Source of the DNA: Pisaster brevispinus | Taxonomy: Eukaryota; Echinodermata; Asteroidea; Forcipulatida; Asteriidae | Assembly (NCBI GenBank): GCA_023634235.1 | Contig: JAMKCF010000001.1 | Span: 16,068,258 to 16,132,257 of the forward strand | Direction of reading: 5' to 3' | Length of the DNA: 64,000 bases | Part shown: positions 10,864 to 61,583 of the stretch, one piece after another | How the letters are laid out: every line of letters starts with the position of its first letter | Position numbering within the stretch: the first letter of the stretch is position 1 | Made by a program: the position numbers and the translations under genes | Notes under the pieces: model-generated | The model's database searches: none | What the model was told of the DNA's origin: nothing | Seen by the model: the letters and a program-made list of their open reading frames with translations, nothing else

Positions 10864-10904
10864 ATGCAGTCCTATTTAACTCATTGTTCTATGCACAGCA
10901 CTGT

Positions 10905-11040: not shown

Positions 11041-11043
11041 AAC

Positions 11044-14000
11044 TGTTTGATTGATTGATTATTTATTCATACATCTGGTGGCCAAAAAGCTAAATTACAT
11101 GTATGTTACAATTAAAAAGGACAATATAAAAATATAACAGCAAAATTTAAAAGAATGTAATAAAAGCATTATAGGAAAAATACAAATTGCACAATAAATG
11201 CAATTAACTAAAAACATCTAAAATTGAATATGAAGAAAAATTCATTCGTTTAAAATATAAATAAAAAAGGGGATGGGGCTTTTTTTGAAGCGAGTAGTTC
11301 TGGTTGGAATTTGTGAGATTCTGTTACAATTTCTGAGGCACCTACCATGGCTTTCAAGCCTAGTAGGGGGCAACAGAGAACTAGTACGGGCATTTCTACC
11401 GAGGTTTTCTGCGAATTTTTTACAATTTGCAAGTCTTCTTTCTGCAAGTGTGTCCAGATTACAAAGTTTAAGTTCATCAGTGTAGGAATTTAAGTTGCGA
11501 CCAAGAATTATCTTACAAGCCCTCTTTTGGATGGATTCAATATCATTAGATTGTTTGCAGGTAAGACTAGAGTGCCATACAACGTCAGCATATTCAAGGA
11601 TGGGTCTCACATAGCCACAGTATACAATTTTAAGTTCATTAGTATTGAAACCAAACCGTTTGAGAGTCCTCAACATAAATAGTTTTTTGTTGGCCTTTTC
11701 TAATATTGTTTTGCCCTGAACATTCCATTTGAGGTCGCTTTGCAGCCATAGACCTAGAACCTTTGCTTCTGAGACATGGAAGTGACTCTACCAATCTTTA
11801 GGTTATTATGCAGTGGAGGCGTTTTGTTGAAGCAAACTTGGATAGCCTGACATTTGGAGGGATTTAACTTTAAGAGGTTCTCATCACACCACTGCTTAAA
11901 CTTGACCAGGTCGTTCTGCATAAAACCTCCACGTGTAGCCATGCGGTTCTCTGCGAATGTCAGGTCGTCCACATACTTCCAATATTCAGTGTCAGCATCT
12001 TGAGCAGCTGAATTAATAAGTATTTGGAAACCTATCGGCCCAAGCTTAGATCCCTGTGGAATTCCCCCATTAAGATAAACATAATCAGAAAATGGATTAT
12101 TATACCGAACACACTGTTGTCTATTGTGAAGAAAGTCACAAATCCAGGGAACAATGGCCCCGCGGACTCCAATGTTGATCAACATTTCAATAAGGAGTGT
12201 ATAATCAACAAGGTCAAAAGCTTTAGTGAAGTCCGTCAGGACCACTGTTCCCACATTGTGACTTTCTTCAGCTCCCTGAAAAAGGTAATGGACAAGATTA
12301 ATTAGATAATGGGAAGTTGATATACCTTCTACATTGCCAAATTGACGAATATCTACTTTGTCTCTAATATCCATTTTGATCCATTGCGTTATGAAACCTT
12401 CAGCTACTTTAACAAAAATAGATGTGAGTGAAACTGGTCTAAGTTTATCAATGGTTGGCGGGAACTGTTTTGGAATGGGAACAGCAATTGCTTTCTTCCA
12501 TTGTTCCGGTACTATCCCCACACTAAAAGAACTATAAAAAATATCAGTGAAGGGAACACTTAATTCATATGCAAATTCCTTGGCTAACTTAGGAGGAAAC
12601 TTGTCTGGACCGCTTGCCTTGGCAGGCTTTATCTTCCTAAGCTCAGCATAGACAACTAACGGGTCCAATTGGGGCACGGGATTTCTAGCTGGTAAAAAAG
12701 TTGGCAGCTTTGAACAGTCAAGGGGCTTAAGTACATCAGACACACTAGAAAACACTGAATTAATTGCGTTAGCTTCACCTTTGGCATTATTTTCATCAAT
12801 TCTTATTTCTAATACTAAATTCATTTTTAGTGTAGTTGGTTATTGTTTTTATTTGTTGATGCCATTTTCGTTGATCAGTTTCCTGTAAATTTCTGACACG
12901 ATTAGCATAAAAATTTATTTTTTCCTTTTTAATCTCTCTTTTTACCTTGTTTCTTAGTTTGCACCAATTCTGTCTGTTGTTGAAGGCAAATGCAGCTTGG
13001 CGTTCATAAATAAGCTTTTTTACATTTGTAGACAGCCAAGGTTTGTCACTGTGATGGGTGCTGATTGTTTTAACAGGGAAACATAAATTACAAGCGGTGT
13101 CAATCATCGTATAAAAAGCATCAGTCTTTTCCTGTGGGCCAGAACAACAGAGTACCTCGTTCCAGCTTTGATTTTGTATCCATAAACCAAAAGCTCGTAT
13201 ACCTGAATCAGGAAATGAACGGAACTCTTTATTCTTAAAGGTGTTCTTCACTTTACAATGTGCTTTAGGTTTCCATAAAATACATTAATGGTCACTAAAA
13301 CCAATAGGGGATAATGCAGTCGGTTTATTATAATGGCTATTAAGTTTATAATTTGTTAACATGAGATCAAGAGTAGCTTCACCACGTGTATGAAAGTCAA
13401 CAATTTGGTACAGATCATTACCTCTGATAATCGGGAATATATTCATACGATTAAAGTCCCCTAAAATTACAATGCCAATATCTGGGTATTGAGTTCTTAA
13501 AGAGTCAACTGCTTGTAGAATGTGGTTTTGCAGAGTTTCCTGAAAAGGAGAGTTTGTTGTGATGTACACTGCACAGATGGCAAGTGATGAAATTCCACGG
13601 GGCAGTTTACTAGGGCGAACTTTAATCCGTAAGCACTCTAATTGTTCAGGAACAAGGATGTCAGTTGCCTTGCTGGCCGGGATTCCATTCTTAATGTACA
13701 CGGCAACACCACCTCCACGTTTATTGTCACGGCACTTAGAGAAAACATTGTAGCCATTGATGTTCAACTGGTTATCCGGTATATTGGGCGAGAACCAGGA
13801 CTCTGTTATAACTCCAATGTCGACTTTATGATGGTTAAAAATGATTTCAGCTTCGTCAAACTTGTTCACCAATGATTGAGCATTGGTCATGAAAAACGTT
13901 GGTAAATGAATAGCTTTAGGCAGGGTCGTATGATCACCATGGCGTTTAACTGCTACAATGTTATAACTTGTTTTCAATCGGACCAAACGAATAGCTTTGG

Positions 14001-14410: not shown

Positions 14411-16120
14411 CATTTTGCAAGAGATCGTTTTGAGGAAGTGCTTTTGTTGAGTGTCTATTCCGTGATTCAAAAACAAGAAACGGGTGAGTAACGTTACTTG
14501 CCAATCTGAAGGTTTCGACGTCGAGATTTTCCGCAGTATATAAATCATCTCCAATAAAATTGGTATGCAGCTTTCTGAAGGCATGTTGTGAGCATGCATG
14601 GAAAACCAGTACGTGCATATACACATGGATTGCATGCTGTCCCATGGTAGCCATTTTAAAGTACACTCGAAGTCTCAGCGATCCATTGCAGGTATATTAG
14701 ATTCTAAAAAAAATCATCATTGTTCAGCAGGTAAAATTGGGTCAAAATTTCACAAAGTATTCACAGGATACTCACAAGACTCATCGCAGCAAAGAATCAC
14801 AAGTAGATTTAAAAATGACAAAGATGTTGACGGATAACAAAAAGATGAGAACCAGCAAATAAAATGGTTGCAGGCAGCTACAAACAGCGCCCTCTTACTG
14901 TGAAGATCTGTCCTGAATTTTAGCTAATTTCCGATGTGAAAGTCTATGGAAGCAAGGAGGTATGTTTACAGGATAATTATGTAACTGTTATATTACTTAA
15001 ACCATGGAGGAAGGAAAAGAAGGAGTTCGAACGACCCGCCTAACCCCCACAGGGTATTTAAGAACCAATTAGCGTCTTAGCTGGCCCTGTGCAAAACGAA
15101 CGAAGACCTCCTGTGGCGCGACTGTTTTTACGAGCGCGATAAGATCTCATCCAGTGTCTTTGTGCACAGACGTCCTCGCCGCCCTGCTCACACTGGAGTA
15201 AAGAATTGTTTGATGACGTACAGCACGCACAATGTGCATAGGGACCACGAACAAACAAAAACGCATGCGCAGTTGTATTTCCGTAGCTTTCGCCTATGCG
15301 CCGTGCTTTTTCAACCGATTTGTCTTTAGTTTCTGAATATTTCCGTCTTTTGATCGTCAAATTTCAACGATTTTTTTATTTGTCAAAAGAAAAGTGATTT
15401 TTTTTACCCCTTAAGAAAAAAAATCGGCTCATTTTTTCTCGTAAGTGCTACGTTCACCGTTCATGTTCACATGTGTAATGAAATCATTTCCTATGATCGG
15501 TTCCCTTAGATTAGAAAAAAGAAACTAAATTCGTTCTAACCGCCGAGTCTGAGGTTTAAATAAAAATATGGAAGTGACAAAAAGTAAAATTCAGAAAGCT
15601 ACGATAATCCCCTTAGGCTTGTTTTATGAGATTTTTTTTTTATGTAATAGTTTTAACCATATTAACAATATAAACTTCGATCCAGCTGATAATTTATATG
15701 ATGAGTAAAACTTTTATTTGACATTTCAACAGTCATATGAGAATAATCAACAGCTAGCTTCGTTTTAATTTATTTGTTTATTATTTACCCCCAATTACAC
15801 AGAAATTCAATTACTACACTGCTAGGGCTAGGCCTATTTATTATTATTTTGTTATTTCGTGCATGTTTTCCTTTGTCGGTAACTGCTTGAGTAAAAATAT
15901 TGATTGGTCATTAAACTTGGCCTCCTGGAGTGGCTCAATATCTTTGCGTGCAAACCAGCGTTAACCAGTTTGAATTGGTTACAAAATTATTTTCAAAAAT
16001 GTGTAAAACCAATTCCAATTGTAAAGCTAATTTGTGAATAAAGTAGAACTAATGAGTTGCCGAATTTTGAGGGGCTTTTTGGAGTCTTGATTAAAAAAAA
16101 AAATTCTAACCATTTTAAAT
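14411..16120. other. Non-coding stretch with a GC-richer, promoter-like core at 15060-15370
   Basis: No convincing gene is seen; open frames here match no family. The core 15060-15370 is richer in CpG than its surroundings and holds an NRF1-like palindrome ACGCATGCGC (15261-15270) and a half CRE TGACGTAC near 15215. It lies about 0.8 kb upstream of the P-like transposase and could be its promoter. The rest is AT-rich. Confidence 0.35.
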
Positions 16121-16157
16121 TTATTATTTGTTCACAAATTTTCTGATTTCTGCAAAG

Positions 16158-19100
16158 ATGCAGCACTCAGACTGCCTTCGGGTCATCTGTCGGCTGTGTG
16201 GAAAAGAACGGGCTATTGTCCAAGGCCGTCATCCTATCGGTAAAGAATCACTTTCAAGAATGATAGTTGCAGCTTTGTCTGTTGATGTTGGTGATGATGA
16301 CGCCGACTTGCATCCACCATTTGTTTGCAAGCCTTGTGAAGTGATGCTAAAGAAATGGTGGGGAAAGCATCTGAGAAAAAAGAAAGCACCATGCAATATC
16401 GAAGTGGCGTTGTTCGACAAGAAGGAATGTGAGGGCTGTAGAGGGGTTGTTGCCGAAGAGATTGCGGCACAGTCATTGAAAGAGTGGTCCTCATTGGCAA
16501 GTACGTATGATCTTGTCGCTTGGCAAGGATTTGATAAGCTTCATATTATGAAGATGAGTCCATTGGGTAGGCCAGTTATTTATCTCATCGTCTGCAGTGA
16601 CTTTTCATGTGAAATTGTTGTGGATGGGGTGACAGTAGACCCAACAGACCATAAGGTTTTTGCAGATGTGCAAACGTTGTCCCAAGAATTAGTTGTCAGC
16701 CTTTTCCACAGATTGTCAACATTAACAGTTTGCGAGGGGAATAAGTGTTCCGAATTCCAGCTACTTGTTGAAAAGAAGAAAGGGCCAGAGGGGCAGATTC
16801 CACTTCGAATTACATCCAACGACACTCTTAATGGTAAAACCATCAGACACCAGCACTGCCAGCTCTTAACCGAGGGGAAGGTGAGATGTGATGTCTGCAT
16901 GGTGCATCGTGGTGACTTGATGTCGATGGTTGCTCAAGAACGTGCCAAGAAAAGCCACGATGTGTCCATTGCCTCTACTGTGCCGAACATCAGACTGACA
17001 TCTAGACAGCTACAGCAAAAGGTTTCACTCCTGACGAAGGAAAGAAGAAATCTGAAGCGACGTGGAGTTCTTCAGGAAAAAGTGGCTCACCTCATGACGA
17101 AAGAGGCGTTGTGTGTTTCGGATGAGCAGAATGGGCAGCTCAAGTCAACCTTTGACGAGTGTGAGGAAGGTCTCGCTGATATTATCGAGAAGGGCTCAGC
17201 AGCTCATTTGTTGTGGGAACAACAAAAAGAGGCTACAGCAAAGGGAAAGCAGATGCGCTGGCACCCAGCCATCATACGGTGGTGTATAGCTCTTCAGAGT
17301 AAATCGGCAAGCTCTTACAACTTAATTCGGCAAAGTGGGTTTATGAAGTTGCCTCATCCGAGCACACTTCACCCATATACCCACTTTGCTGATCCAACAA
17401 CCGGCTTCAATGCGGCCTTACTCGACAAGGTTGTGCAAGACAATCATATTTTGTCTTGCCCAGTACATGAGAGGAATGTGTCATTGTTGTTTGACGAAAT
17501 GAAAGTCAAGGCGGGTCTTGCTTTTTCAGTGAGGTCTGGTAAAGTAATTGGTTTTACCGATGTGGGCAGCATTGCGAATGAGGTTGCTGATTTCGAAAGA
17601 AAATGTCGTGGGGAGTCAGAGCCGGCAGTGGCTAGTCATGTGCTTGTCCTCATGGTACGAGGAATCTTTAGTTCCCTGCATGCGCCTGTTGGGTATTACC
17701 CCAGTACAGGTGTCACCAGTGACCAGTTGTATCCGTGTATGTGGGAGGCGATTGTTTTTCTTGAGTTGGCTGGCTTTCAGGTGCGTGCCTTGGTTTCAGA
17801 TGGGGCTTCACCAAATCGCAAGTTTTATCGCTTGCATTCGCCTGAGGCAACTACAGGGGCCACGTACTTGACTGCCCATCCTTGTGATCATGACCGGCAA
17901 GTGTTCTTCATCTGCGACGTCCCTCATCTTGTCAAGACAACCCGAAACAACTGGGAGAACTCTGGATATCACAACAAGACCAAGTCCCTTTGTGTAAGTC
18001 CTTTTGCAATTGTTTTCTTTTTCATAAGGTAAAAACCATCTTGATGGAAAACTTTGCATTTCTTTATGTTTTAAACTTGAAAAATCCAACAATTATTTTG
18101 AGTAATAACTAATAGTGTCCAGTGCCTTTAAGGCAATATACAATTATTATAATTACATTATACTTTTTTTTTGCCAACAGTTCAACAAGAAAGCCATTTC
18201 CTGGGTCCAGTTGTTGCAGTTGTATGAGAAGGATGCTGGTCAGGATCGCCAATCTCTTGGCTTAAGAAGACTGCACAAGCTGAAGCATGAACATCTCCAT
18301 TTGACACCACCATTAAGGATGAGAGTTTACCTGGCTGCACAGGTAAGTTGATTTAAAATATCTTATTGTGACTCACAATCAGTCAAAATGGAAAGGGACG
18401 CAAAAAACAATCCACTGATGCTGAGTACTTTTACTTATTGACACATACACATCAAAATTGCCCACGCTGAAAATTTTTCTGTTCATTCAAATTTCAGGTT
18501 TTGAGTAGCACAGTGGTGCATGCTTTTAAAATCACAGGGAAAGATTGAGACGAAATCAACAGAGACATTTGTTGAATTTTTCGACAAATTCTTTGACTGC
18601 CTTAATGTCTCAAACGCCTTCAAAGCATCGCGCTTAAGGAAACCTGCACTGGAACCATACAGAAGTTCGGATGACTGGCGCTTTGAGGTAAGCAAACAAG
18701 TTTTAAAATAAACAGTACAAATCCATTTTCATTTAGATAATAACTAATATGTTCAGGGGCCAAAGATAATAACTAATATGTTATGGGGCCATCCAAAGTT
18801 TCCAAAATGTTCATGGTCACACAAAGAGTACAGGGGTGGGGGACAAAGGCAGTGTACAACTTCAGGCGTTTAAAGTGATTATTTATACAGTATAATAAAC
18901 ATGGGGAAAAAACCCACAAAAGGTAGGTTTAGATAAACTCCGTTTATTTTACAATGCCTGACTCAATGCCATGTACATGTATGATTGAGAAGGCTTTACT
19001 GTACTAAATCAATCAAAACCTGTCCAAATATTTGACTTGCACAGATGTGTTAGTGTATTTTAATTTCAATAATGTACAGTACCTGATTTTCTTTTGCATG

Positions 19101-23005: not shown

Positions 23006-23395
23006 AAATCGGCTGCTGGCCTTTCAGGACCTCCTCCGGGGCTAATTATTGTCCATTTGGCACCAATGATCTGGTCCCGTTGGATTCATTTTGTGTGTGC
23101 GAAAGTGTGCAAATTTTTATGGAGCACTGTTGCGCTAATTTTGCAGGAGCCCGGCTTATTTGGTCAGACATCCTCCCTCTTGCTTGTTTTTTCGGGCACT
23201 TTCCCAATCTTAATTGGAAATGAAAAGGTGGTCCATCAATAAATGGGCCAGGTCCGTTAGCCGGCGTATGGGGATTTCAATATTGCATCACCCACAATTT
23301 AAATGGTCATTTTTTCATTGATTTCGCTTTGATGGAGTTCATCTGTCCCCCGAAGGGTTGGATCTTTTCAGGAACAATATTCGTAATTGTATAAT
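23006..23395 (+). pseudogene. Second Ngaro SGNH-hydrolase fragment
   Basis: It is the plus-strand paralogue of 3968-4300: both encode SGPPPGLI(V/I)VH and HPQFKW and share long DNA identity. The GTND block is broken by a frame change. Unlike the first copy it continues past HPQFKW. After an in-frame TGA (23319) it reads DGVHLSPEGLDLFRNNIRN, which supplies the DxxH block V of SGNH hydrolases. The N-terminal GDS block is missing, and no recombinase precedes it. Confidence 0.65.
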
Positions 23396-45100: not shown

Positions 45101-45807
45101 AAAGCATCCACCAACAATACAGCAGACACAGTTCTTCAGTTATTTAAAGCTGTGTTGATGAGTTTGGCCTACCTTCTCGGGTGCGCAGTGACTGCGGTAC
45201 AGAAAATGTGGACGTGGCTAGATACATGCTGTCACACCCGGACCGACGATTTGACCGTGGAAGTTTTATAACTGGCAGGAGTGTACATAATCAGCGAATT
45301 GAAAGGTTATGGTCAGATGTCAGACGTGTTATAATCTCCTACTTCCGGAACCTGTTTTACAATCTGGAATCATTGGGCCTCCTGGATCCTCTCGATGAAT
45401 TGTCGCTGTTCACTTTACATTTCATGTACCTCCCTCGGGTAAATCTTTCCATAAGGGAGTTTCTGGAGAACTGGAATCATCATCCCCTTAGTTCCTGTCA
45501 CAATAGAAGCCCGCGCCAAGTGTTTCATGAAGGAGTGTGGATAAATAGAGAGAGCAACAATGCAGCAATCACTGGCCTGCAGGCAACAACCAACCATGTA
45601 TGGGCAGAGTATGGAATTGATGAAGACGTGCCTATGCCATCAGTAGAAAGTGCCAATGATGTGCAAATCCCACCCTTTAACATTCCGCATGCAGAAGCAA
45701 TATTGCAAGAATTGACAAGATGTATTGACCCTATGCAAGATGATGGAAATCATGGGTGTAATCTGTTTCAGGAGGCAGTGAACATTGCTAGAACAATACA
45801 AGTTTGA
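42136..45807 (+). pseudogene. rve-type integrase-core transposase gene, four exons, several frameshifts
   Basis: Exons: about 42136-42391 (YNEVHSSIELILHRVQGLHE, GRPQLHLPQDVLDNLYDVHR), 43286-43456 (ILQRLPNAGESFVTG), 44699-44840 (ALRRRGLHVQCRRIRDAIQT, then a frame change before VYSVPCPNALW) and 45013-45807. The last has the integrase core: [11 protein letters not shown] (first Asp), [19 protein letters not shown], then after a frame change near 45150-45165 [10 protein letters not shown] (second Asp, 45190) and [12 protein letters not shown] (Glu, 45301), and NWNHHPLSS. This matches a family of animal rve-domain proteins thought to be DDE transposons; IS3EU or Ginger-like are candidates I cannot decide between. 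Exon 2 also has a stop after MLAVSL. It is decayed, though the core is well kept. An ATG at 41982 starts a short frame of uncertain relation. Confidence 0.7.
43500..44690. other. Intron of the integrase-type gene; nothing else seen
   Basis: Lies between the exons ending near 43456 and starting at 44699. It is AT-rich, with no nested element recognised. Confidence 0.45.
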
Positions 45808-46720: not shown

Positions 46721-46841
46721 TATCAATAACGTACATGTACGTGTAAGCAGGTAAGGTCTGGAATTACATGGAGGCATGCCCTTCACTGAATTTGAATTCG
46801 TTTTGTTTTCTATGACTAATACACGTTTTGTTGTCTTTCTA

Positions 46842-46870
46842 CCCTTATAAAAAAAAACCAATGGTATCCA
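46842..46870 (+). repeat. Left terminal inverted repeat of the 14.7-kb transposon
   Basis: CCCTTATAAAAAAAAACCAA followed by TGGTAT. It matches the right end in reverse complement with two mismatches in the first 29 bases counted from the flanking TA. Confidence 0.8.
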
Positions 46871-47590
46871 ATGGTATTTGAATGGTATTCAATGGTATTC
46901 AATGGTAATGAATGGTAGCCAATGGTACCTCAATGGTGTATCCAATGGTAAGTACTGTACTAAATGGTGTTTCAAATAGTAAAATAATTTTACCATTCGT
47001 GACTAATGGTAATGAATAGTAGCCAATGGTGTTTTAAATGGTATAATAATTTTACCATACAAGACTAATGGTAATTGCACTGTAGTGAATGGTTGTCCAA
47101 TGGTTGTGAATGGTGTTTGTAATGGTGAATGGTGTATCAATTGTAGATCAATGGTGTATTGGTGGGTCTGAATGGTATGTGAATGGTAATGAATGGTAGC
47201 AATGGTGACTCAATGGTATTTGTAACGGTAGTATATTATTGAATGGTGTATAATTGTTTGAATGGTATAATTGTAGACACAATTGTAGATCAATGGTGTA
47301 TTGGTGGGTCTGAATGGTATGTGAATGGTAATGAATGGTAGCAATGGTGACTCAATGGTGTTTGTAATGGTAGCATATTATTGAATGGTGTATCATTGTG
47401 TTTGAATGGTATGTGAATGGTAATGAATGGTAGCAATGGTGACTCAATGGTGTTTGTAATGGTAGTATATTATTGAATGGTGTATCATTGTGTTTGAATG
47501 GTATAATTGTAAACACAATTGTAGATCATTGGTGTATTGGTGAGTCTGAATGGTGTGTGAATGGTAATGAATGGTGACTCAATAATAGTA
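46858..47590 (+). repeat. Left subterminal AATGGT array
   Basis: Dozens of AATGGT hexamers, nearly all in the same orientation, spaced by 3-15 bp (AATGGTATTC, AATGGTAGCC, AATGGTGTTT and similar). From about 47130 a higher-order unit of about 110-160 bp (GTATGTGAATGGTAATGAAT .. GACTCAATGGT .. GTATATTATTG) is repeated three times. No coding sense. Confidence 0.85.
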
Positions 47591-48533
47591 TCTGTCTTTG
47601 CTTTGTTGATTGCCAGTTTTTAGTCCCCCAAAATAAACGTCCTCATAAAACGGTTAAATCAATTAGAGCTAGCACTTCAGTTTCCTCCTGATTTGATGAA
47701 CAATGTAAATTAAACAAACAGCACATAATGAGAGGCCATGAAACAATTTGTGTGTGGATTCAATAGTAGTTAAAAAGATTTAATAATAAATAATATTTAC
47801 AATTCATGTATTTAAAGTCACAACACTATAAAGCTGAAACATTCGATTCATTCAAACATTTTAAATACCTTTCAATGTCATCATAAAATCTGCATTCAGC
47901 GTACTGAACATAACTTGCAAAATCATAATTATTGAATTTTGCAACTTTTAAAACCTTCACATTTGAACAAATAATTTAAAGGTCCTTTTAAGCAGAGCTC
48001 TCAAAAATTAATGTATTGTATTCACACACAAAATAATAATGAATAAAATGTAGTTCATGTACACCTTAATCAAAGGCAATAAATGTATGTCAGCCTCTGC
48101 ATTTTGTTTTGAAAAAAATTCAACAATCCTTTGCAAAACTTTGTAGGTTTACTGCTGCTGTGAAAATTCAAATGAAAAAATTTTCAATTTTTTTGTTTAC
48201 TGCAATTGTCTCTAGATTTAAGCAAGTGGGATTAGTCTCTTTCAAACTAGTTTGGCAACACCACTATATATTTGGAGTGGCCGTCTTTTCTACACACTAC
48301 ACATTTCTCCTGGAAACTATTGTAATACACAGCTCTAGGTGGATGACCATCACTTTGTACATGATGAATAAAATCTGACCGTATGTTTAGCTGTCTATCA
48401 ACATACTGATATTCATGGATCTTGGTTAGACTATTGATGATTATCAATGGAGTTGTATTGCAGACAGTCATGTGCACATAAGGCAATTGTATTGTTGAAG
48501 TTAGATTGCTTAACAGTACAAAATGTGCCATCT
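47591..48533. other. Spacer between left array and transposase 3' end
   Basis: AT-rich with no gene. It should hold the 3' untranslated region of the minus-strand transposase. A minus frame 48531-48247 directly follows the transposase stop but has no motif. Confidence 0.45.
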
Positions 48534-51500
48534 TTAAGCTTGATGAGAGTCATCTCTCTTCTTGATACCCACTCTTCCATATTGCTCACAGTGAACTAAT
48601 CTTCCCTCGAACTGACATCGTTTGTAATACTCAGCTTGTGTGTTTCCCAGTGGTTCTCCAAGAAGATACTCAACTGCAATGTGGTCATCATTTTCAATAT
48701 GCTTTCTAGTTGTAGCGCCCAAAAGCAGAAGAGAGCCAATTCTAACCCTTTTGACTTGTCGATATCCACCCACATGAGTAAGTTTGGCAAACAGATTTAG
48801 GGACTCTTCTTCTCCTTCTTGCATGCATGTTCTTGCCAACTTCTTTGCTGATCTGTATAGCTGAAAGCGATGTGCCATCTGCTGGGGGATATGTTGTGAC
48901 CCATGGACTAATTGCAACAACACATGGTTGTTGCCTTCAAAAGGGAACGCAGAATGACACCACGCAGGTCCCCACGCAGAAACACTTTCTGACAAATGAC
49001 ACAGTTGATGAATATTGAATGAGATGTGCTCCTTTCCATACAACTCCTCCATCTTTATGACAAATTTCTTTAACGACACTTCTGCACAATCAATATCATC
49101 CGTAACTTCATTCTGAAGAAGTTTATGCATTGCATGTACAAGCAAAAACCAATGGTTTAGGTATCTAGCATTTAGAACTCCTTGAAGGATGGAAAGGGAA
49201 TAAAACAAGAGATATGAACGCCACTCTGATGCCTTCCAATACCTTCTTGTTTCAAGTTGCCTTGGAACCCTTGTCACTTCATGAGGTGGGGCTATACTCA
49301 TCAACTTTAGATTGACTTCACCTTTCCTGGTTCCAATGTACCAAGGTTGTCTATGATTTCGACTGTCAAACCAAAGGTCTGTAAGCTGTCTCACAACACC
49401 CAAAAGAACACAATGCATATAATCAACAACGAAACCACCGATGATATCAAATTTGGGGAGGAAAAGAACAACTGAGGGACCCTTGATGCCATGCACTGAT
49501 CGACCAAGCTCAACTGCCTGTAGCATATCTTCTTCGTGTGTCAAAGCAGAGCGTGTTTCTGGTTCCGGTTCTCTGAAAGGATAACATCTCACAAAACCAT
49601 TTCCCTTTTCTACTCGTTCTCCGACATGGTAACACCAGTCACAGCCATAAGCTCCATTGAACTGGGTGCTGTTTTTAATAACAGGCCTTGCCACTGCATT
49701 ACTGCTGCAGCAAACATAGAAAACTTTGCTGTTAACAATCCTTCCATTCAATGGATTTTTCCATTCAAATCCCTCTTCAGCCAAGAAGGTTGCTTCATCT
49801 TTAAGTGGCTTTAAGAATGTAGACATTTCTGGTTCTGAGGGACCAAACCATAAACCAGCAACAAGAACATTTCGCTTTCTCTGCTCATATTTCAACTCAT
49901 TTACCATACACTGTACAGGCCAAACAGAAAAATTTGATGACTTGAACACTGGCACCCCATCAATATTAAATGTGGTTGTGAAATCTTGATCCAGTATAAC
50001 ATCATTCTCTACACTGCCCCTTAGGTTCCTCCCACTACATACATCATTGCATGTTCCATCTCTTATGGCACCCTGTGATTTACAGATAAGACTACTAGCT
50101 ATGCTACTGCATTCTACCAGGTCTTTTATTTGCTGCATTAATTAAATTGTGGTAAAAAAATTACCGGTTTTCATGCTTTTGCTACACTCAAAAGGAGCAG
50201 CACATTTAGCACAGTGACCCTCATGCATTTCAGATTCTTTCCCTATGTAACTAGCACACACAGAACAAACAATATGTGAAATGACATTCTCTGTATTTCC
50301 TTCGAAAGACTTTGATAACATGTACTTTGATTTAGGTAAAATGCCTGGAAACAACACATTAAATAGTTTCATGAGATCATTGAGACCATCGCCACTGATA
50401 TGATGTTTAAATATGTAGGAAAGAATCATCACTCTTGCCTGGTTACTTGTCAATCTGCATTCTGGATACAAAGGTTGGTCACCATCATTTTGATGCTCCT
50501 GCAATAAATGAAGAAAATTAGTAAAGCACTACATTTACTTTTTATTGCCCAAAGACAATGGTTGGTAGCAGCACTAAACTCTGCAGTGATACCTCATGAA
50601 TACACAAGCAGTGCATTTAGAGGTGTGTTTGTGTATGATAAAACATTGTACAATCATGGTATTGACTGTTGAAAATGTACATGTTATGGGGGTCTCATAA
50701 TGCTGTCATGGCTGTTGAAATGCCTAAATCCCTCAATTTGAAAACACCATTTTAATATGGAAATAAATTTTTCTAATAAGAACTTTTGAATAGAGATTAA
50801 CTTACTTGACCAATGTTATCATTTTGCCCGGGATCATCTCTTTGCGGTGGCTCATGCTCATCATTTGACTCTGAATCAGGATCATTCCCATCATCCGGAT
50901 CATCATCATCATCATCATACGGATTGTCATCATCATCATCATCATACGGATTGTCATCATCATCGTCATCATCAGGATAATCATCATCAGGATTATCACC
51001 ATCATCATCATCAGGATTATCACCATCGGGCAGATCCTCATCTTGCTCAGGATCATGATCTTGTTCAAGATCATAATTGTTTTCAAGATCTTCAGGATCA
51101 TTACCTGGATCAGGTGCATTGTTGTGTTCATTACTTACATCGGAATCTGGATTAATCAAACTATTCCCCAACTCAGAAGCATGCACACGCTCATTCTCAT
51201 TCAATGTGTGAAAATCTAAACATCTGCAAAAAAAATATAAACATAAAACAAACTTAAATACAAAAACATACCTGTTAAATATTTAGAATATCATATGTTT
51301 GCGTGGGTAATTTGTTTAAATTTGTCATTATTTAGATGTCACAATAAGAAGTGATATATTGTGCACTTACACATGACATGCACATAGTGAACCAACAACA
51401 TTCAATAACCAGTTAATAAAAAATCAGCAAATTTCAAATATAATTAATGTATCACTAATATGGAATCAACCACAGGCCAAATCTCGGTAAAAATAAGTCA

Positions 51501-51638
51501 ATCGAATAGGACATTTATAAAAAATTACCTTTCCTTATTCCAATTCCACAATGTTGTTCTGGGAACTTTCCCATCAGGATATCGATAATACTTCTTGTAT
51601 GGACCACGTTTTCGGCATCCTTTTGGGGGAACCTCCAT
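48534..51638 (-). pseudogene. Tnp2/DUF4218-type transposase, three exons, one premature stop
   Basis: Exons 51638-51529, 51223-50806 and 50498-48534 join in phase to 831 codons. The start ATG 51638 opens MEVPPKGCRKRGPYKKYYR, a basic N-terminus. Exon 2 is an Asp-rich linker made by an in-frame GAT/CAT microsatellite. Exon 3 has a Cys/His cluster (HIVCSVCASYIGK, CAKCAAPFEC), then TTTFNIDGVPVFKSSNFSVW, VLVAGLWFGPSEPEM, GAYGCDWCYHVGE, GGFVVDYMHCVLLGVVRQL, and a C-terminal FNIHQLCHLSESVSAWGPAW..AFPFEGNNHVLLQLVHGSQ. These are the landmarks of Tnp2-type transposases with a DUF4218-like region, known from CACTA/EnSpm elements. One in-frame TAA (50144-50142, codon 295) splits it; otherwise no lesion is seen, so it died recently or the stop is a polymorphism or assembly error. 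It lies in a TIR-bounded element and is divergent from the BEN gene. Confidence 0.85.
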
Positions 51639-54066
51639 CTTAATTCTCTTGAACTGTGGGAGAAAAATATACAGAAACTGGGTTATGCTTAACTGGTAAA
51701 TATGTATCCCATGAACCATGTAAACTAGACTCATACATTTGATCAGTTGCGATAATTCTATTTATAGCTTTGCGTCTTGATCACTTACGTCCCTTAGGGT
51801 CAGGAGGATTGAGGGTTATGATTATTGCAACTAACATTATGAATTTTTCACTATTCCCTGAAAGTGCCATTTACACACTTTTAATTTTATGAAGTCAATT
51901 AAGTTGGAAACCAATTTTCACTTAATGTTATAAAAACCAATGTTCAATTGACTTGAACTACAAAATGGATTATGTTCACAAAATTGTTAGAGGAGCAATC
52001 GCATCATCAGTGCCATCAAGGGTTCCTCAACATATAATGCATGCTTCCAGTGCAAGTAATAATAAACTTTCTAAAACAGAGTGCGCCACCATTTGACGAA
52101 GCAAGATGATAGGTGATCAGGAACAAGCCAACAGTACGATCAAAAACAAAATAAAACACACTGCTCAGTATTTGTGTAAACTTTTTCTTACACAATCTTA
52201 AAATTTGAAATTACTGTCATTCACCCTGGCATTCAAAATTGAAAGGTGAGAAGTTTTAACAGCGTTTTTCAACCAACATTTCTTTAAACATAGTTTTCAA
52301 AATGTCCATAACTTATTTATCGATGATGGTTGGCACTGTTTTAGGTTTGACTTTGATGGTTTTTTGGGACGTTGTTATTCTTCAAATGAATCAACAGAAG
52401 TTTGTCATGTGCACGATGTGAGAAGTAAACTATGTTGTTATTGCAAAGTTGAAGCATTAAGTGATCCAGAACTGATCAATGAACATGTCAAACTTTCGTA
52501 TGTACTGTACAGTTTGTATATCATGTATATAGTTAGTTGGTTGCATGCCCTTTCTCCATTGTTGCATGGTGTCAAAACATCAACAAAACCTCTATAGTCT
52601 ACTCTTATATAAGATGGGAGACCTATCGAAGTATCAAATAATTAACAATTATTAATAGTTAGTATGCAATTGAGTGACAAATACTGATATTCGTATGACC
52701 TAATCTTGAAGTTGAACCATGTGGAACTTACGATTACGATCCGTTAATTTGACATCTCTCCGTCCCCGTGGTGGGTGCTCTGCTCTGGGTGTCCAAATAG
52801 CATGCTACCAGTATGCACACATGTGATTAATAGCTCTCTCGCATCGCTGCTACTAGCTGCGTCCCGTCCGTATACATGTTTGTACATGTACACCCCCACA
52901 CACACCCACACTGATTGCGCCAGACACGTTTTTGAAGATATACATGTATTTTGTACATTCATCCGTGTACATTTTGGCGCGATTGACCGATCGCGCCCAA
53001 CAACATATACTGTACATGTACATGTACATGTACATGTACATGTACATGTACATGTACATGTACATGTACATGTACATGTACATGTACATGTACAACGCTG
53101 CCGGGCCGCGATGCTGCCGGGCCCGAATGCACTCTATGCTACTCGTAATGACTGGTGCCGGGTGGTGTTGGCAGCCGGCCAGCCCTTGCCCCCACCCCCG
53201 TTTGGCAGCCGGCCAGCCCCCCCCCCCAACCCGGCCATCTCCCCCCCCCCCAACCCGGCCATCTCTAGCTTTGCACATGCGCAAAATTAAGATTTGTTGA
53301 GGTCGAATAAGAGTCTAGCGTTTGTGGCCAGTGCCCATTTTGGAAATAATAATAAATAATTAAGTTTGTTTTTTAATTGTTTAAAATTAATACAATCGTA
53401 ACAAATCGACTTTGCCTGCGATGCTAACAAATCTTGTCATGATGTGCAGTGAACCATTCAATTGACCGTTCGACCTAGTTGTTCAGGAGAATTTTAATAC
53501 GGTCAAATAAATAAAACGGTAGATACTGGCAATTTTGGGAAATTTTGTATTAATGTTTTAATGTGTTTAAGTTTAACCCCTGCCCCCCCCCCCCATTAAA
53601 AAAAATTGTTTTAATATTATTAAATAGTAATAAATAAATTATAATAATAATAAATAAAATAATTCAAAATAAAGTAAAACAAACAATAATAATTAAAAAA
53701 AAATTTTTACAAATATTTTATTATTTGAGTTATGGGTTATCAAAAACTTCCAGCCAATTACATCTGGTTGTCATAGCTGGTACCCGTACAGCAGCCAGCG
53801 TGCGGTAGTGGTCGTGCATGCAGCAACACGCACGGCCGGTGGCATAGATGACGTAATTAAGATCGACAGTTGTCAGTTTTAGGGGTTATAATTATCCCGC
53901 CTTTTTGTCTAAGCATGCAGCATGCAGATATAGGCATATCCATACACGTAGCTGCAGACGTTGCACATGAAGAAGACCACCATCGTCATTCAAACGTCTT
54001 ACTCTTAACACGATTTGTGGGTTCCAAAAATTATCACATAGTTCTCTAAGTAAACGTATCATTGCA
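51639..54066. other. Divergent intergenic region of the transposon, likely shared promoter
   Basis: It separates the starts of the transposase (minus, 51638) and the BEN gene (plus, 54067). It holds the ACATGT microsatellite, CpG-rich and poly-C tracts (53100-53290, with CAGCCGGCCAGCCC and CAACCCGGCCATCTC direct repeats), a CACATGCGCA site near 53274 and an AT-rich tract. A frame at 52364-52597 is unsupported. Both promoters must lie here or in missing 5' exons. Confidence 0.5.
53010..53094. repeat. (ACATGT)n microsatellite, about 14 copies
   Basis: Perfect hexamer repeat that is its own reverse complement, so it can form an extended hairpin. It lies in the spacer between the two transposon genes. 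Confidence 0.9.
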
Positions 54067-57000
54067 ATGGAGAAGTTTGCAATACTCGATTTTGGTGATG
54101 AAGGAGTGGATATTATGGATGCAGAGGGTATCGAATTCCCTGACAAATCTCGGTTGAACAACACACAATTCGACTTTGACAATGCAGATGTTGTTTATTG
54201 CGACAACTCCAACAAGAAGGGGACAAAAAGGGTGGCAGAAGACGGTTTGCTGCAAAGGTTCTTCGGTTTGGAGGTACGTATTGATACTCAGCTGGCCTAG
54301 CTTAATTACCGACACAAATTCACGTTAGGCATGTCTGCATTAGGTATTTAAAAATTTTTTTAAATATTTTATTTATAAATTATTATAATGTTTTTATTTT
54401 TACAATTACACCTCTGTCATGTCAGTCTGACTGAGAGTCAGTCCATATAATGGAGGAAGAAATAGCACCTCCATGGTCAGTCTGTCCACGGAGGAAGGAA
54501 ATTTGCTTAAAAAAAAAAACTAAACTAGCGAGAGGATGACATTGACAGTCTCCGTTACAGTACAACCCCAACGGAATTGACGGAGACGGAGTCCAACCTG
54601 GGTAACTTTTCGGTTGAAACATGGAGAGCTATAAACTGCTTATTTAAATCGTTAGTCATTACTAATTGTCATGATGATTGTTAGATCTCCAGCGGTCAGT
54701 TTTTTAATAATATTTTGAAACCAGCAAGAACTCGGTCATATATGTCAGCACTGACAGGAGATCTTTGGTAGTACTTAATTAATTATTATGGACAGACCAT
54801 ACAGCTCAGACTGACTACACCGACACTATTTTAGTTTCGTAATTTTGCCTCGAAAGAAATAATTAACCACACCGCACAACACAAGCAAGACTCCCAAGAG
54901 TGTATTATCACCAAATACATGTACAGAACAGAAACGCTACACTGGTCCCTCTCTAGATGGCAAGTACAAAAAGCATGGGCACCACAGTACATGCAGTATG
55001 CTAGCTAGTATACGTACATGTATGTGCACTGTCGTAGCGTGTTAAAAAGTGTACAACGGCTGTGCGATACACGTGTGTTCTGCATGTGTGAAGCCTGTGA
55101 AATCATCTAGCAGCTATGACCCCTATTATGTGACGTTGTTTTGGTGTTTTGACGATTATTATTGATGTAAATATTGTTGTAAAATCTAGTCTATTTACTA
55201 TTCTTCATCTTAGCTCATACTAAAAATTCAGGTCACTGAGGTGACACGTCACTGTATGACACAAATTCCTCGATTTTTTTTGGTGGTGCCGACATGATGT
55301 GTTTCTACTGTACTGGTACTGTTGTGTTGGGTTGTTTTTTTTTAGGGGAGATTATACATTGGCTTTAGTACTATACATGGTGTAGTACTATATATGGGTA
55401 GATTTTCCCCCTGACCTGAGTAAAACCTAAACTATATGAATGAAGACACAAAAACAAACCAATATTTTTAAGATGTTGCCAACATTGACAAGTGTTTAAG
55501 TTAAATTTATTACGCATAAATACGTTTGTTACTGCTCTTTTTAACCCTGTCTTGTGCTATATAATCAAAAGCTGAACTGCAGCCGTATTTGGCAAGGGTT
55601 ATCAAAGGTCACCCTCTAGAAGGAAAAGATGAATCGCCCCTGGGAAGGGGCAAGAGAGCGGTTATTCCAAAAAAACATTACACAGATGATGAATGTGAAG
55701 AGCTCAGCAGTAGTGGAGAGGAAGAACAAGAACTTACTGCAAAAAAGAAAGAAAAGGTAAACTAAATTATAAATATTAAATGATTGGTTTTTTTTCAAAA
55801 TTGCAGATTTTGTTTTGTTGCACCTACTTTGAACCAACATGCCAGTTTTCCAAAAATGTGCATGTAACTTCTAAGTTTATGAAGACAAGCTCCACATACG
55901 TACGTTTCTTGTCCAATTCAGATACATCAATGTCCTTTAAATGTGTTTTATTTTTTTATGTGGTAACAAGTGGCAAATTATGTAATCAGTACAAAACAGC
56001 TGAATTTGCCAGAATTACAAATTATGTGAGCATTCCTTCTCATAACTCCGCAGTGACAAATGGGAGGATAAAAGGTTATAACTCGCCCGGAATGTAATCT
56101 TTCTGCTTAATTTGTTTCAACTTGCACTTGTCAACCAACGCTTTTAATGACCTTCGTTGCATTTATTTATTAAGTTTTCGTCACATTATTATCCAACAGA
56201 AGATTGTAGCTTCGGCTGAAGCAAAGAAAATGGTTGACAATCTGTTGACACTGAAGCGTCAGAAGCAAACGGTAAAGTCTAGCATTTGTAAAAAAAATTA
56301 TGAAATTGTCATTGTAGAATGGACACTATTGTAACGGTTCTATACCCAAGGGCCCGAGCGGCTGGACCAAAGGCCGTCCATTTTGAGAAAATATATCTTT
56401 GTCTATAGGGCAGATTAAACTAATTATTTGGCCGAGCTATGTTAGACCCAAAGAAAATGGAGTCGCATGAAATAATGACCATCATGACCTGAATTCTGGT
56501 TGGTACGGTTTATTTACTTCAACAACTTACGGGTTGGTCTCTCTCAAGGGCGTCGATCGCTACTGAAAAGTAGGGGGGACGGGCGAGCAAGTCTTGAAAA
56601 AATACATCTAACATAATAGGCCTAAAATACCATTCTGCGCGTGGTCCATCAGAAAAAAAGATAAAAATGAAAAAACATTTCACCATTTATTCGCTATTTA
56701 TTTAAACAAAAATTGTAATGAAATATTAAATCAAGAAAATGGTGTATATTTTTATATTTTGTTGCATATTTCTAATGAACAGTCAATCAAAAAGTGGGGG
56801 GACATCTGATATGCTGTCCCCTCCAGTCAAAAAAGTGAGGGGGACATCTGATATGCTGTCCCCTCCAGTCTAAAAAGTGAGGGGGACATGTCCCCCCCGT
56901 CCCCCACCCATCGACGCCCTTGGTCTCTCTTTTACCCCTTATATAGCGCCTCTTGCGTTCCAACCGCGTGCACCTCCTAAAACTTTGTGTGCAGCGCCTC

Positions 57001-59189
57001 TGATTGAACCGTAACTGTGGCTCAAGCACGACTCGCTGCACCGCTACCAAAAGTTCGACTCCTCAGCAGAGACTGGCTGCTTGCGCGCTGCCGCTGTAAC
57101 TTTTCGCGCGCTGTGTGAAGTGGCAGTTTGCGTTACACTATTAACAAAAATTAACAATTTGCTATGTTCAACTACATTTTTTTTTCTTAGAACTACTGAA
57201 GTATTACATCTTATTTTTTACATTTTCTAAATGTTGTTTCTAGAGCTTGGATTTTAGCACATGTAAGAGGACAAAAAATGAGTGTGAAATGATGGAACTG
57301 AGACGTGAAAATGCTGCACTTCGACGCTCATTAGCAATAATTGAAGGCAAGTGGTCTGGTTAAACATAATAAGACCAAAATTAAGACACCTTATTTGTCA
57401 ATTTAATATAACCATGTAACTTTAAGCAACTGTAACGGAGGGAAGAGATAAGCTGTTAAAGGGGGCTGTTGTCGTGATCTCAGCAGGTCTGTGGCTGTTC
57501 ATATTTTTCTAACCGTTACTTTAGGAAGCAGGCATGATATTTCTACTTTAGTCTTCCAATTTGAAAATTGATCAACAGGGATGAGAATCTTCAGACTTGA
57601 TTCTAAACTCAGACTTTTTAAATGTCTGCCTTGTGTAAAAAATAGTGGGTGTAAATTATTTTGTCTATGTCTAAACATATGCTCTTTTCTCTGCTTCTTT
57701 TGTGGTGAGGATAATGTTCCTAAAATCTCCTTAAAATCTAACTCCTTAAAATTATGAGGCTGTAATACTAATAAACTTTTCCTGATACTATTAACAGGAC
57801 TTCCCAGCTTGCTAAAGCAGATGAAGGAAGTGACCGCCCTGACCAATTCAACGTCACCATCTCGAAAGACAATCGCAAAAGAGGTATAGAAAAAGTTTTT
57901 CAACTCAATGTCCTCCCACCCCTAATTGTCCATCATGTTCATTGTGAGTAATATGGTGACTTGGCTGGATTGTACCATCCCAACAGCAATTGTGCAGACT
58001 CTAACATTTTAGATAAACAAAACGTGGCAGCACACCATCTACATACTGATTTTTCATTATTTAAGCAACTATTTTATTTTGTTTCTTACAAACAGGTTTC
58101 ACCATCACCAGGAGCCCCAAACAGCAAATCACCATCACCAGGAGCCCCAAACAGCAAATCACTATCATCTGCTTCAATTACTTGGAAGGCTGTGGACGTG
58201 GAGCATAACGATGTAATGAGAACTATGTTTTTTAATTTCTTTAATTTGCTCTTTCTAACCAGTTGCCGAAATAGACAGCTTCAAAAAATAACTTTTTAAA
58301 TATGCCATCTTTTCAATTTAAACAGTTGATCAATTCTGATGGAAAAGTTGTCGTGTCTGCTGAGACAATGTCCATCATCCCAGTGCAGTGCCCAAGAAAA
58401 ATGGTGAACGCCCTTTTCACAGCTGCATTCACCCAGGAAGTTCTCAGCACGCATTCCTTAACTGGGTCTGTGTGCAACCTATACAAATATAAGACCCCCA
58501 AACCTGGGCTACCAACATCTGATGTTACTGCAATTAAAGGTACAGAAACTTATAACACCTTGAATGTTAGTGTCACATATGCAAATTGCAATTCAAACCT
58601 ATGAACCTGTCATGGGTTGGGTAACAAGAAGTTCAAATTGTGTTTGTTTACGACAAGAGTGTATCAATGATGAGTGTTTGTAAGGGGGGGGGGGCCTGTG
58701 CTGAGGTTTGACGTTCATAGGGATTGGCATTTTGTGAAGCAATACTCTCCTAGCCCAAACTCAAGTTTAAAGCAACAGATGCGAACTTCTAAATATACAT
58801 CAACCTCTGTACTTTTGTAATGGTCTAAAGCACGACCATGCAGTCTCTGTACATGTCAACAAGTACTCGGAAACATATTCTCAAATTATGTTGTTGTTGT
58901 TTTTTTTTTTCACTAACCAATTAAATAAATTGTGCGACATTAATTGTGAGTACAACCTACCTAAGTTGCATCTAAAACTTTTGATATTTTTGGGGAACTA
59001 TTATTAAATCTATAGCCTTCATTTTTGGAATAACAACAATTTGTATTTTTGATTAAATTGATGTCTTTTTCTAATTACTTTCTCATCACAGATTATGTAA
59101 AACAACGCTTCCCCTCGTATACCGACAGGCTTTTTAATATACATGGACGGGAAAAGCTAACAAATATGCGAAGATCCACAAAGATCTGA
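54067..59189 (+). CDS. BEN-domain protein, eight exons, intact
   Basis: Exons 54067-54273, 55583-55756, 56200-56271, 57244-57346, 57798-57883, 58096-58212, 58326-58539 and 59092-59189 total 1071 nt with consistent phases and one stop, giving 356 residues. The start MEKFAILDFGDEGVDIM is acidic. Exon 2 has a basic patch (GRGKRAVIPKKHY) and an acidic Ser run. Exon 4 gives a short coiled coil (ECEMMELRRENAALRRSL). Exon 6 has a duplicated 10-residue block SPSPGAPNSK. Residues about 275-350 form a BEN domain: RKMVNALFTAAFTQEVL, STHSLTGSV, KPGLPTSDVTAIK, DYVKQRFPSYTDRLF. BEN domains bind DNA and chromatin factors. Intron 4 appears to use a GC donor (GAAG|GCAAGT). It sits inside the 14.7-kb transposon, opposite the transposase, so I infer an accessory role such as binding the subterminal repeats; co-option of a host gene is the alternative. 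Confidence 0.8.
56545..56922. mobile_element. 378-bp hAT-type MITE with 8-bp target duplication
   Basis: Ends CAAGGGCGTCGAT and ATCGACGCCCTTG are perfect inverted repeats. The flanks are direct copies of GTCTCTCT (56537-56544 and 56923-56930). CA..TG ends and an 8-bp duplication are the hAT signature. Inside, a block of about 45 bp (GGGGGACATCTGATATGCTG..) is repeated in tandem near 56797-56885. It lies in intron 3 of the BEN gene. Confidence 0.88.
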
Positions 59190-59208
59190 TTGTTCATTGG
59201 TTCAGTTG

Positions 59209-59610
59209 TTAAAAGGCAGGGTTTATTTTTGGTAATTACTCCACAAGTTAATGACCATAAAAAATTATTTGGTTAAGAGCAGTGGGGAGCTGTTCATATT
59301 ATAAACCATTGTTAGAAACTACCCCCTTTGAGGTTGGGTAGTTTTAGAGACAGAGGTAATTTGTAACCCAAAAATTTGAAACTGAGGAAGGCTTCAGGTA
59401 TGAAGTGTTTCTCAGGCACATAATTCAAAGCATCAAGGGTGTGTTTTCTTTCAATTGGTTATCGAAGTTTTAAGAGAATACTCTTGCAAATTCGATGACT
59501 ACCGATAATTGAGCCAAAGTTTTCACAGGTTTGTTATTTTGTGCACATGTGTGGATACCAAGTGAAGATACTGGTCTTTGACAATTACCAAAAGTATACC
59601 CTGCCTTTAA
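59209..59610. mobile_element. 402-bp MITE with TTAA ends
   Basis: The left end TTAAAAGGCAGGGTTTATTT and the right end on the minus strand TTAAAGGCAGGGTATACTTT form inverted repeats, each continuing TTGGTAATT. It begins 20 bp after the BEN gene stop codon. Interior blocks include AGCAGTGGGGAGCTGTT and TTTTCACAGGTTTGTTATTT. No coding capacity. Confidence 0.72.
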
Positions 59611-60468
59611 TTGGAAAGTATGCTTATGGTTCTTAACATCATTCATTTAATTTTCATTCTCACTCTCTCTGTTTCTGTACCACACAATCAGGGCTCAAAT
59701 TTTTGGGGAAATTACACATGGTCGCATGGCTTGAGCTTGAAAAATTTACAGGACCATAATTGTTTTTACACAGTTAAACATTTAAACTGTTTTAAGTTGA
59801 ACAAGCACTTTAGTGATTTGATAGTTATGTAAATTAATTAAGAAAGTATGTTGTAGATTCGAATTCTTTTTACATGATCGACAATTGTTCTAAAATCTAA
59901 CTTAATACATTTTAGTGAATCACTTTGTCAACACAACAATGGATGCTTAGCAGCTAGTTATAGTTTAAAGTTAGTAAGTTTCACATACAAAGTGTACTCG
60001 GGAAGAGACGGGTTATTTTAACAAATCTGTTAAAATAACTCAAGACAACTTCAGAAATCGGCATGGCAACATCAGGACTTTTAAATATGCATTTTTTTAA
60101 ATGTTGCTATTTCAAGTTAAATGCTTTTGTTATTCTGAATTAAAGTTTTTTATGTTGAAAAATTTATGAATTTATACTTGTTGAAATAAATTTTCCACTT
60201 AACCATCCATGATATGGCAACAGACCTGATTTGCATTTATACTTGACATTTTATTTGTAGTAGCAGTATTGAATGGTGTTATTGATAAAAACATTGGTAA
60301 ATACCATAGGTGTGATCACCTGCATGTAGTTGCAGGTTGGCTGTGGCTGGATCGATCACTGCAACATCTTGCAGTGAAATATAGAATGTCCTTAGCAACA
60401 CTGCGAGCAAAAGTGGAAGCTGTAGCTGTAGCTGTGAAGGCCTATTTGGATTCGGTAGAGTAGTACCA
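59611..60468. other. Spacer before the right array
   Basis: AT-rich; no gene is supported. A 64-residue frame (60269-60463) overlaps the first scattered AATGGT motifs and has no family features. Confidence 0.4.
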
Positions 60469-61567
60469 TTGATGGGACCAATAGTAAGACCAATCATACT
60501 GGCATATTTAAATTGTACCTACCGTTGATGTGACAGATGATATTGAAAGGTACTGTGGTGTTACCGACGGTATTGCATGTATCAATAGTGTAACCAATGG
60601 TAATGAATGGTATACATTTGTACACCATTGGTGTGACCAATTCATAACCATTGGTCACACTAATGGTATGTACCATTCAATACCATTCAATACCATGGTC
60701 ACACCAATGGTATATACCATTTAATACCATTGATATACCATTCAATACCATGGTCACACCAATGGTATATACCATTTAATACCATTGATTGACCATTCAA
60801 TACCATGGTCACACCAATGGTATATACCATTTAATACCATTGTTGTGACCAATGGTATTGAATGGTATACTATTGGTCTGACCAATGGTATTGAATGGTA
60901 TATACCATTGGTCTGACCAATGGTATTGAATGGTATACCATTGGTCTGACCAATGGTATTGAATGGTATACCATTGGTCTGACCAATGGTATTGAATGGT
61001 ATACCATTGGTCTGACCAATGGTATTGAATGGTATACCATTGGTCTGACCAATGGTATTGAATGGTATACTATTGGTCTGACCAATGGTATTGAATGGTA
61101 TACCATTGGTCTGACCAATGGTATACCATTGGTCTGACCAATGGTATTGAATGGTATACCATTGATCAGACCAATGCTACTGAATGGTATATACCATTGG
61201 GGTGACCAATGGTATTAAATGGTATATATACCAATGGTATTGAATGGTATATACCATTGGTGTGACCAATGGTATTAAATGGTACACCGTTTGTGTGACC
61301 AATGGTATTTAATGGTATATACCATTGGTGTGCCCAATGGTATAAAATGGATATATACCATTGATGTGACTAATGGTAATGAATGGTTTTTACCATTGAT
61401 TCATAACGACGGGCTGAATCTTATTTACATTAATGCAATGGTATTTATTAATGGTAATACCATAGGCAATTACCATTGAAAAAAATACGTTCCAAAACAC
61501 CACTGGATGCTAATGGTATATTTTAATGGTAAATGTTCAATGGTAATTCAATGGTATACCATTGATT
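60469..61567. repeat. Right subterminal array with 33-bp palindromic units
   Basis: Mixed AATGGT and ACCATT motifs. The core (about 60850-61170) is a tandem array of a 33-bp unit, about eight or nine copies. Each unit has arms ACCATTGGTC and GACCAATGGT around a single T, followed by ATTGAATGGTAT. Flanking parts have variants with TGTGACC or GGTGACC centres. The array stays open as an 11-residue repeat on both strands, which is not a gene. Confidence 0.88.
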
Positions 61568-61581
61568 TGTTTTTATAAGGG
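61553..61581 (-). repeat. Right terminal inverted repeat of the 14.7-kb transposon
   Basis: Read on the minus strand: CCCTTATAAAAACAAATCAA followed by TGGTAT. It is followed outside by TA, as on the left. Confidence 0.8.
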
Positions 61582-61583
61582 TA

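Follow-up and report, generated by a model that had tools for sequence, protein, structure and literature searches.

In a 64,000-nucleotide stretch of the Pisaster brevispinus genome (hereafter the window; C1:16068258-16132257), we identified an element in which terminal inverted repeats (TIRs) and subterminal repeat arrays enclose a Transposase_21-type gene and a divergently oriented gene with a BEN domain. Because of its CCC ends and transposase motifs, we place the element, as judged from sequence, in the animal TRC branch of the CACTA superfamily. The BEN gene is very probably a resident, co-inherited component of the element, and most likely a resident gene of several TRC families rather than a recent capture. 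On balance, we favor the interpretation that the window holds a degraded TRC cut-and-paste transposon, of a lineage with a resident divergent BEN gene whose protein would bind the arrays. A preliminary description of the window had proposed a single TIR-bounded element with a transposase and a BEN gene inside, and the recurrence of this pair with the same kind of ends in other copies bears this out.

Ends, arrays and genes of the window element

The sequence TACCCTTATAAAAA at 46840-46853 recurs as its reverse complement at 61570-61583, about 14.7 kb away. On extension, the left TIR (46840..46867, plus strand), which starts with TA followed by CCCTTATAAAAA, pairs at 26 of 28 bases with the right TIR (61556..61583, minus strand), whose final two bases are TA. 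We compared these matches to 10 first-order Markov simulations of the AT-rich window. The 14-bp terminal match alone is within chance: 14-bp inverted pairs more than 1 kb apart numbered 8-42 per simulated window vs. 171 in the real window. A 28-bp inverted pair with at most 2 mismatches occurred in 0 of the 10 simulations. The real window contains 67 such pairs, of which the terminal pair is one; the 60 pairs listed all connect 3.97-4.21 kb with 23.1-23.3 kb, and a scan that omitted the 3.9-4.4 kb stretch yielded no 28-bp pair in the window besides the terminal one. These two places form an inverted duplicate (3949-4264 and 23016-23328, 92% identity over 316 bp) that is unrelated to the element. 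A degenerate (IUPAC) pattern, built from the two ends themselves, matched 2 places in the window, against 0 when the sequence was shuffled 100 times. A chance inverted repeat is ruled out by the 28-bp match together with the further copies described below, and the terminal match is not part of a longer unrelated inverted repeat, a possibility that the preliminary description had raised.

Both termini begin with CCC (CCCTT), and there are no CACTA termini; that the ends are of the CCC, TRC kind had not been foreseen. TA, which is its own reverse complement, flanks CCC...GGG on both sides, and a 3-bp flanking repeat of the plant CACTA type is absent from the window flanks. TA is presumed to be the target-site duplication of the window copy; if it is the duplicated target, the element spans 46842-61581 with TA on each side. 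Just inside the ends lie the hexamer arrays. In the left array (46858..47600, plus strand; AATGGT(A)), 46 of 47 AATGGT hexamers are direct, that is, point inward, and in the right array (60451..61555), which contains 33-bp and 55-bp palindromic units with AATGGTA and TACCATT in both orientations, the two orientations are mixed (43 vs. 28). AATGGTA is present in 26 copies over the left 760 bp and 42 over the right 1,133 bp; none lie in the 12,850 bp that separate the arrays, and the remaining window has 4. Both the TIRs and the arrays thus match the earlier account of the element, as do the two divergent multi-exon genes that it had placed in the middle.

The transposase gene (48235..51638, minus strand) has at least three exons (51638-51529, 51223-50806 and 50498-48235), of which 51223-50806 carries acidic repeats and the last encodes the DDE domain. 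For Transposase_21 (PF02992), the window protein scored 16.6 bits (E 0.0045), below the cut-off of 28.6, and the relatives P0001-P0004 also remained below it (18.9-26.8 bits), whereas the relative P0008 (E 1.4e-137 to the window transposase) exceeded it (31.1 bits). The animal TRC motif [LVI]Dx[LM]Hx3LG is present in the window as VDYMHCVLLG at residue 239, and its strict form was found in 39 of 120 relatives. The window and 108 of the 120 relatives contain the core of motif I (DGx3[FY]x7-9WP[ILV]); the full motif I expression is matched in 32 of the 120 and not in the window. In 16 of 16 aligned relatives, C(2)C and H(3-4)H separate the second D from the E of the DDE triad. The Tnp2-type transposase of the preliminary description is a Transposase_21-type gene with TRC motifs, located within the TIRs. 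The protein is predicted to have a RAG1/Transib fold; the structural neighbours from VIA-align are chains ranked high by Foldseek only, and families outside that list may match as well. No relatives were found in viral and prokaryote contigs.

As far as its sequence indicates, the window transposase is dead in this assembly, which the preliminary description had not anticipated. The gene contains an in-frame TAA (50142..50144, minus strand), a frame change near 48550 that adjoins a micro-inversion (48471..48524, plus strand) of about 54 bp matching transposase residues on the opposite strand, and a later stop near the C-terminus. At the presumed second catalytic D, the window has an AAT codon (N148; 49698..49700, minus strand), so that this copy is presumably catalytically dead. 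The position is D in 16 of 16 aligned relatives and, in a loose motif search, in 107 of the 111 listed relatives that showed the motif, which 9 of the 120 did not show.

The BEN gene (54067..59189, plus strand) comprises eight exons (54067-54273, 55583-55756, 56200-56271, 57244-57346, 57798-57883, 58096-58212, 58326-58539 and 59092-59189) and an open frame of 356 aa. The intergenic region from which the two genes diverge (51639..54066) contains an (ACATGT)n microsatellite. The BEN domain (residues 275-350; exons 7 and 8, 58389..59168, plus strand) aligns to BEND6 (7yul, E 1.5e-6), the one solved relative that was found by sequence. The score for PF10523 (BEN; cut-off 23.2) was 40.5 bits for the spliced protein vs. 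25.3 for exon 7 alone, which supports the junction between exons 7 and 8. The 5' part is less certain, because the gene has one GC-AG intron and the acceptor at exon 2 is weak; copies C and D (see below), however, contain matches to both of the first two exons. By our estimate, the intact frame is not in itself significant, given 1,071 coding bases vs. about 2,800 in the transposase.

The transposable-element content of the window is high. An open reading frame for an rva_4 integrase core (45148-45807; PF24764, 148 bits), a mobile-element relic, lies just outside the left end, and a reading frame for a TNP-like RNase H (PF21787) and two for reverse transcriptases lie at 16119-18029 and 10144-12839.

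Copies in the genome and age of the gene pair

In the host genome (549.7 Mb, 512 contigs), a search with the BEN protein identified 19 stretches at six loci: the window (copy W), B (C1:14.22 Mb), C (C1:21.99 Mb), D (C1:13.28 Mb), E (C14:7.30 Mb) and G (C37:1.08 Mb). Each of the six lies next to an AATGGT array that has a TRC-like end; in copy D, this end is 9-10 kb past the array. The ends begin with CCC in W, C, D, E, G and the BEN-less copy F (C7:7.42 Mb), and with ACC in B. Directly before this triplet, W, E and G have TA, but C has TT, D has GA, F has TG and B has CA; because the dinucleotide varies, the element seems to start at CCC, with a target that is not always TA. Right-type ends were identified in W, B, C, D and G, and left-type ends, with hexamers pointing inward, in W, E (18 of 18) and F (24 of 25). 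A triple-AATGGTA pattern occurred 107 times in the genome vs. 10 times for the reversed control, nearly all places among the matches listed being within these loci. The arrays differ in length and unit (1.1 kb with 33-bp palindromic units in W, 12-bp steps at C1:22002501-22004300 in C, and a spread over 5.7 kb at C37:1082001-1087665 in G), with the AATGGT core constant across copies.

The preliminary description had called for a genome search for copies with the same ends; other copies do share the ends and contain BEN, so the alternative that it had named, of no such copies or none with BEN, did not materialize. All four copies with arrays on both sides (W, B, C and D) hold both genes or their remnants, two of the four (C and D) being linked by inference across long gaps. 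Copy C has the gene order of the window, with a right array and a right end; its transposase is 59-63% identical to that of the window in three pieces and three frames, and its BEN 46-52%. Copy B retains BEN, the 5' portion of the transposase (89.7% identical over 1.6 kb) and a remnant of the left array, the TIR of which is gone. In copy D, BEN and a right end occur with a left array (C1:13220562) and a transposase that is 54% identical (13226786-13228231). Nested insertions in C and D would account for the long gaps. The partial copies E and G contain BEN, with no transposase detected in the stretch fetched, and F contains neither gene.

To relate the two genes across the genome, we counted at least 62 transposase loci (86 stretches merged; 81 of 142 candidates scored) and 15 matches to the Pfam BEN profile (E<=1e-3). 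Six of the 15 lay 663-9,898 bp from a TRC transposase (C28:2.28 Mb, C5:8.72 Mb, and C1:9.43, 13.55, 21.70 and 22.00 Mb, the last being copy C), and all six were divergent from it. On C1, 4 of 6 BEN matches were within 10 kb of a transposase vs. 0.30 expected, and none of 20,000 random placements (7-25 Mb) reached four. The best pieces of the transposases in these pairs are 39-61% identical to that of the window. The other nine matches had no listed transposase within 10 kb. They are E, with its array; C1:11.84 Mb, C1:17.59 Mb and C5:23.1 Mb, at distances of 47 kb, 175 kb and 14 Mb, respectively; and five for which the contig has no transposase listed. Some of these nine are probably host BEN genes. 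Because the profile search does not list BEN of W, B, D and G, its sensitivity is low. C1, between about 7 and 25 Mb, seems to collect or keep TRC elements: of the transposase loci counted, 43 of 62 are on this one contig, as are 4 of the 6 loci of this BEN family.

We then compared the copies using Nei-Gojobori counts on tblastn-aligned codons; the figures are rough because similarity-based alignment favors conserved codons. Between W and C, the proportions of synonymous and nonsynonymous differences were 0.834 and 0.370 for BEN (pS and pN; 246 codons) and 0.772 and 0.248 for the transposase (463 codons). For BEN of C and E (98 codons), dS was 2.55 and dN 0.26 (ratio 0.10), and the ratios were 0.14 for D-E and 0.29 for C-G. 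The close pairs had ratios of 0.66 (W-B), 0.58 (B-G), 0.48 (W-G) and 0.56 (C-D, 12 differences), a relaxation that fits dead copies, as expected; the remaining pairs were saturated. Taken together, these values indicate an old pair, with BEN amino acids constrained and synonymous sites saturated between subfamilies.

Possible role of the BEN protein

Given a resident BEN gene, a role of its protein in array binding for transposition appears somewhat probable, and it is plausible that the protein binds the arrays as plant TnpA does, the role that the preliminary description had inferred for it. Under such a mechanism, the transposase, with its RAG1-like fold, would cut at the CCC ends and insert the element with a 2-bp duplication, and the BEN protein would coat the AATGGT-type subterminal arrays at both ends and help to bring the ends together and/or regulate the element or its chromatin, a division of labour like that of TnpA and TnpD in plant En/Spm. 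BEN-solo factors are described in excerpts of the literature as binding CCAATTGG and acting on chromatin (PMC6911014), with the preferred site of BEND6 still to be identified (PMC11472053). We tried the Insv/ELBA site as a candidate for the arrays and rejected it, the match being to the half-site only (CCAAT; 6 left and 23 right, 29 in total).

Several observations weigh against array binding by a resident BEN protein. The known BEN-solo site occurs 0 times in both window arrays, and the left array is mostly TGAATGGT. The idea that transposase and BEN always occur together between the ends holds for the four two-array copies; against its strict form, 55 of the 62 counted transposase loci have no BEN detected within 10 kb by protein or profile search (these 55 include copy D, with BEN 51 kb away). 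Two transposase loci (C14:6068245-6072303 and C1:7408398-7413919) have a left-type array with no BEN found, and are either right-truncated copies or families without BEN. The left array of copy C (C1:21980341) lies 10.5 kb beyond its transposase and 51 kb separates the two genes of copy D; both copies are joined across these distances by inference. For B, C and D, no left TIR proper was recognised; a pattern search aimed at this end in C, in D and in the copy at C14:6.07 Mb gave 8 matches vs. 9 in the control and no new left end, the matches including the end of E, from which the pattern was derived, and the right end of each of C and D. We saw no empty site, and among the copies two readable ends occur in W alone. 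The aligned BEN codons contain stops in B (1), C (1), D (1) and G (2), vs. 0 in E. BEN relatives in the protein database numbered 0 at E<=1e-3 (whole protein) and 0 at E<=10 (residues 252-356), a negative that says little because the search relies on shared five-residue words.

The BEN protein could instead be resident with another role, that of a factor acting on chromatin or transcription to insulate, silence or de-silence the element, with the transposase itself binding the arrays. We regard this as possible, if tentative. The BEN-solo proteins Insv and ELBA are repressors and insulators in the portion of the source consulted (PMC6911014), the canonical BEN-solo site is missing from the arrays, and TRC elements that are described, in the available parts of the account, without mention of BEN show signs of movement (PMC1636069), so that BEN may not be needed by all TRC elements. 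Against such a role, however, array and BEN occur together at all six BEN-protein loci, and the presence of a dense array alongside a DNA-binding protein within a single element suggests that the two match. Capture of a host BEN gene by one element, which then copied it along as a passenger, is very unlikely. The 7 introns and complete frame of BEN are what a captured host gene would have, and the BEN matches far from listed transposases (for example C2, C11, C15 and C5:23.1 Mb) may be host genes, but subfamilies with saturated synonymous divergence keep BEN in the same position, and divergent BEN neighbours accompany more distant TRC transposases as well; the genome-wide association and the synonymous saturation disfavor a recent capture in particular. 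We give almost no credence to ends and genes being chance neighbours in transposon-rich DNA: the density of transposable elements in the window and a 14-bp inverted match expected by chance would fit such a view, whereas the 28-bp end match, the confinement of the arrays to the ends and, decisively, copies B, C and G speak against it. Array binding by a resident BEN protein remains our favored interpretation. An extension of it, in which BEN-domain proteins serve an entire animal branch of RAG1-fold transposons as TnpA-like end-binding partners, and BEN-solo regulators of animals (such as Insv, BEND5 and BEND6) descend from such transposon proteins in the way that other transcription factors derive from transposases, seems unlikely.

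Comparison with known systems

In the literature excerpts available to us, animal CACTA-like (TRC/EnSpm) elements are so far known mainly by their transposase. A recurrent, divergent DNA-binding partner makes it testable what binds the terminal arrays, and whether two-protein transposition, as in plant En/Spm and RAG1-RAG2, holds generally in this clade. Such a partner also places BEN proteins, which are chromatin regulators, in a mobile-element setting and offers a possible source for this family. RAG1-RAG2 is a two-gene element, and we know of no BEN domain in plant TnpA.

According to the parts of the original account consulted, TRC elements have CCC ends, 2-bp duplications and Transposase_21 (PMC1636069). 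Those of Schistosoma mansoni (SmTRC1), Tribolium and Aedes share with the window element a TIR beginning with CCC, a Transposase_21-type protein, the [LVI]Dx[LM]Hx3LG motif, introns and internal repeats, and presumably a 2-bp flanking repeat, but measure 4.5-9.2 kb vs. about 14.7 kb (PMC1636069). Unlike the TRC elements in these descriptions, the window element has a separate divergent BEN gene and dense AATGGT arrays at both ends; SmTRC1 produces further proteins by alternative splicing, with no BEN domain mentioned in the sections consulted (PMC1636069). Spongebob_HMa / EnSpm-4N1_HM of Hydra likewise has CCC ends, together with a 2-bp target-site duplication as presumed for the window element, but is 5.8 kb long, with no second gene reported in the available text (PMC4298943). 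Plant En/Spm, in the excerpts seen, resembles the window element in having a transposase, a second protein and subterminal repeats near both ends, and differs in its CACTA ends and 3-bp duplication (PMC8978399); there, TnpA is an alternatively spliced product (PMC1636069), in contrast to the two divergent genes of the window element. Other DNA transposons are reported, in part of one source, to carry accessory genes, examples being fungal TET/JBP and the Myb/SANT protein of Nuwa (PMC12730594).

The preliminary description knew of no element with this exact combination, and a literature search on the BEN domain with transposon and element terms agreed, with no description of a BEN-TRC pairing among the matches listed. 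The pairing is absent from the portions seen of PMC5704228 and PMC11075544, and BEN goes unmentioned in those of the TRC, Spongebob and plant CACTA accounts (PMC1636069, PMC4298943 and PMC8978399). RAG1-RAG2 / ProtoRAG and Transib share the predicted RAG1/Transib transposase fold, whereas their identity to the window transposase is about 10%, and their partner protein and ends are different. Finally, the BEN-solo proteins BEND6, Insv and ELBA have a single C-terminal BEN domain, as does the window BEN protein, but they are host transcription factors, whereas the window protein is encoded by a transposon.

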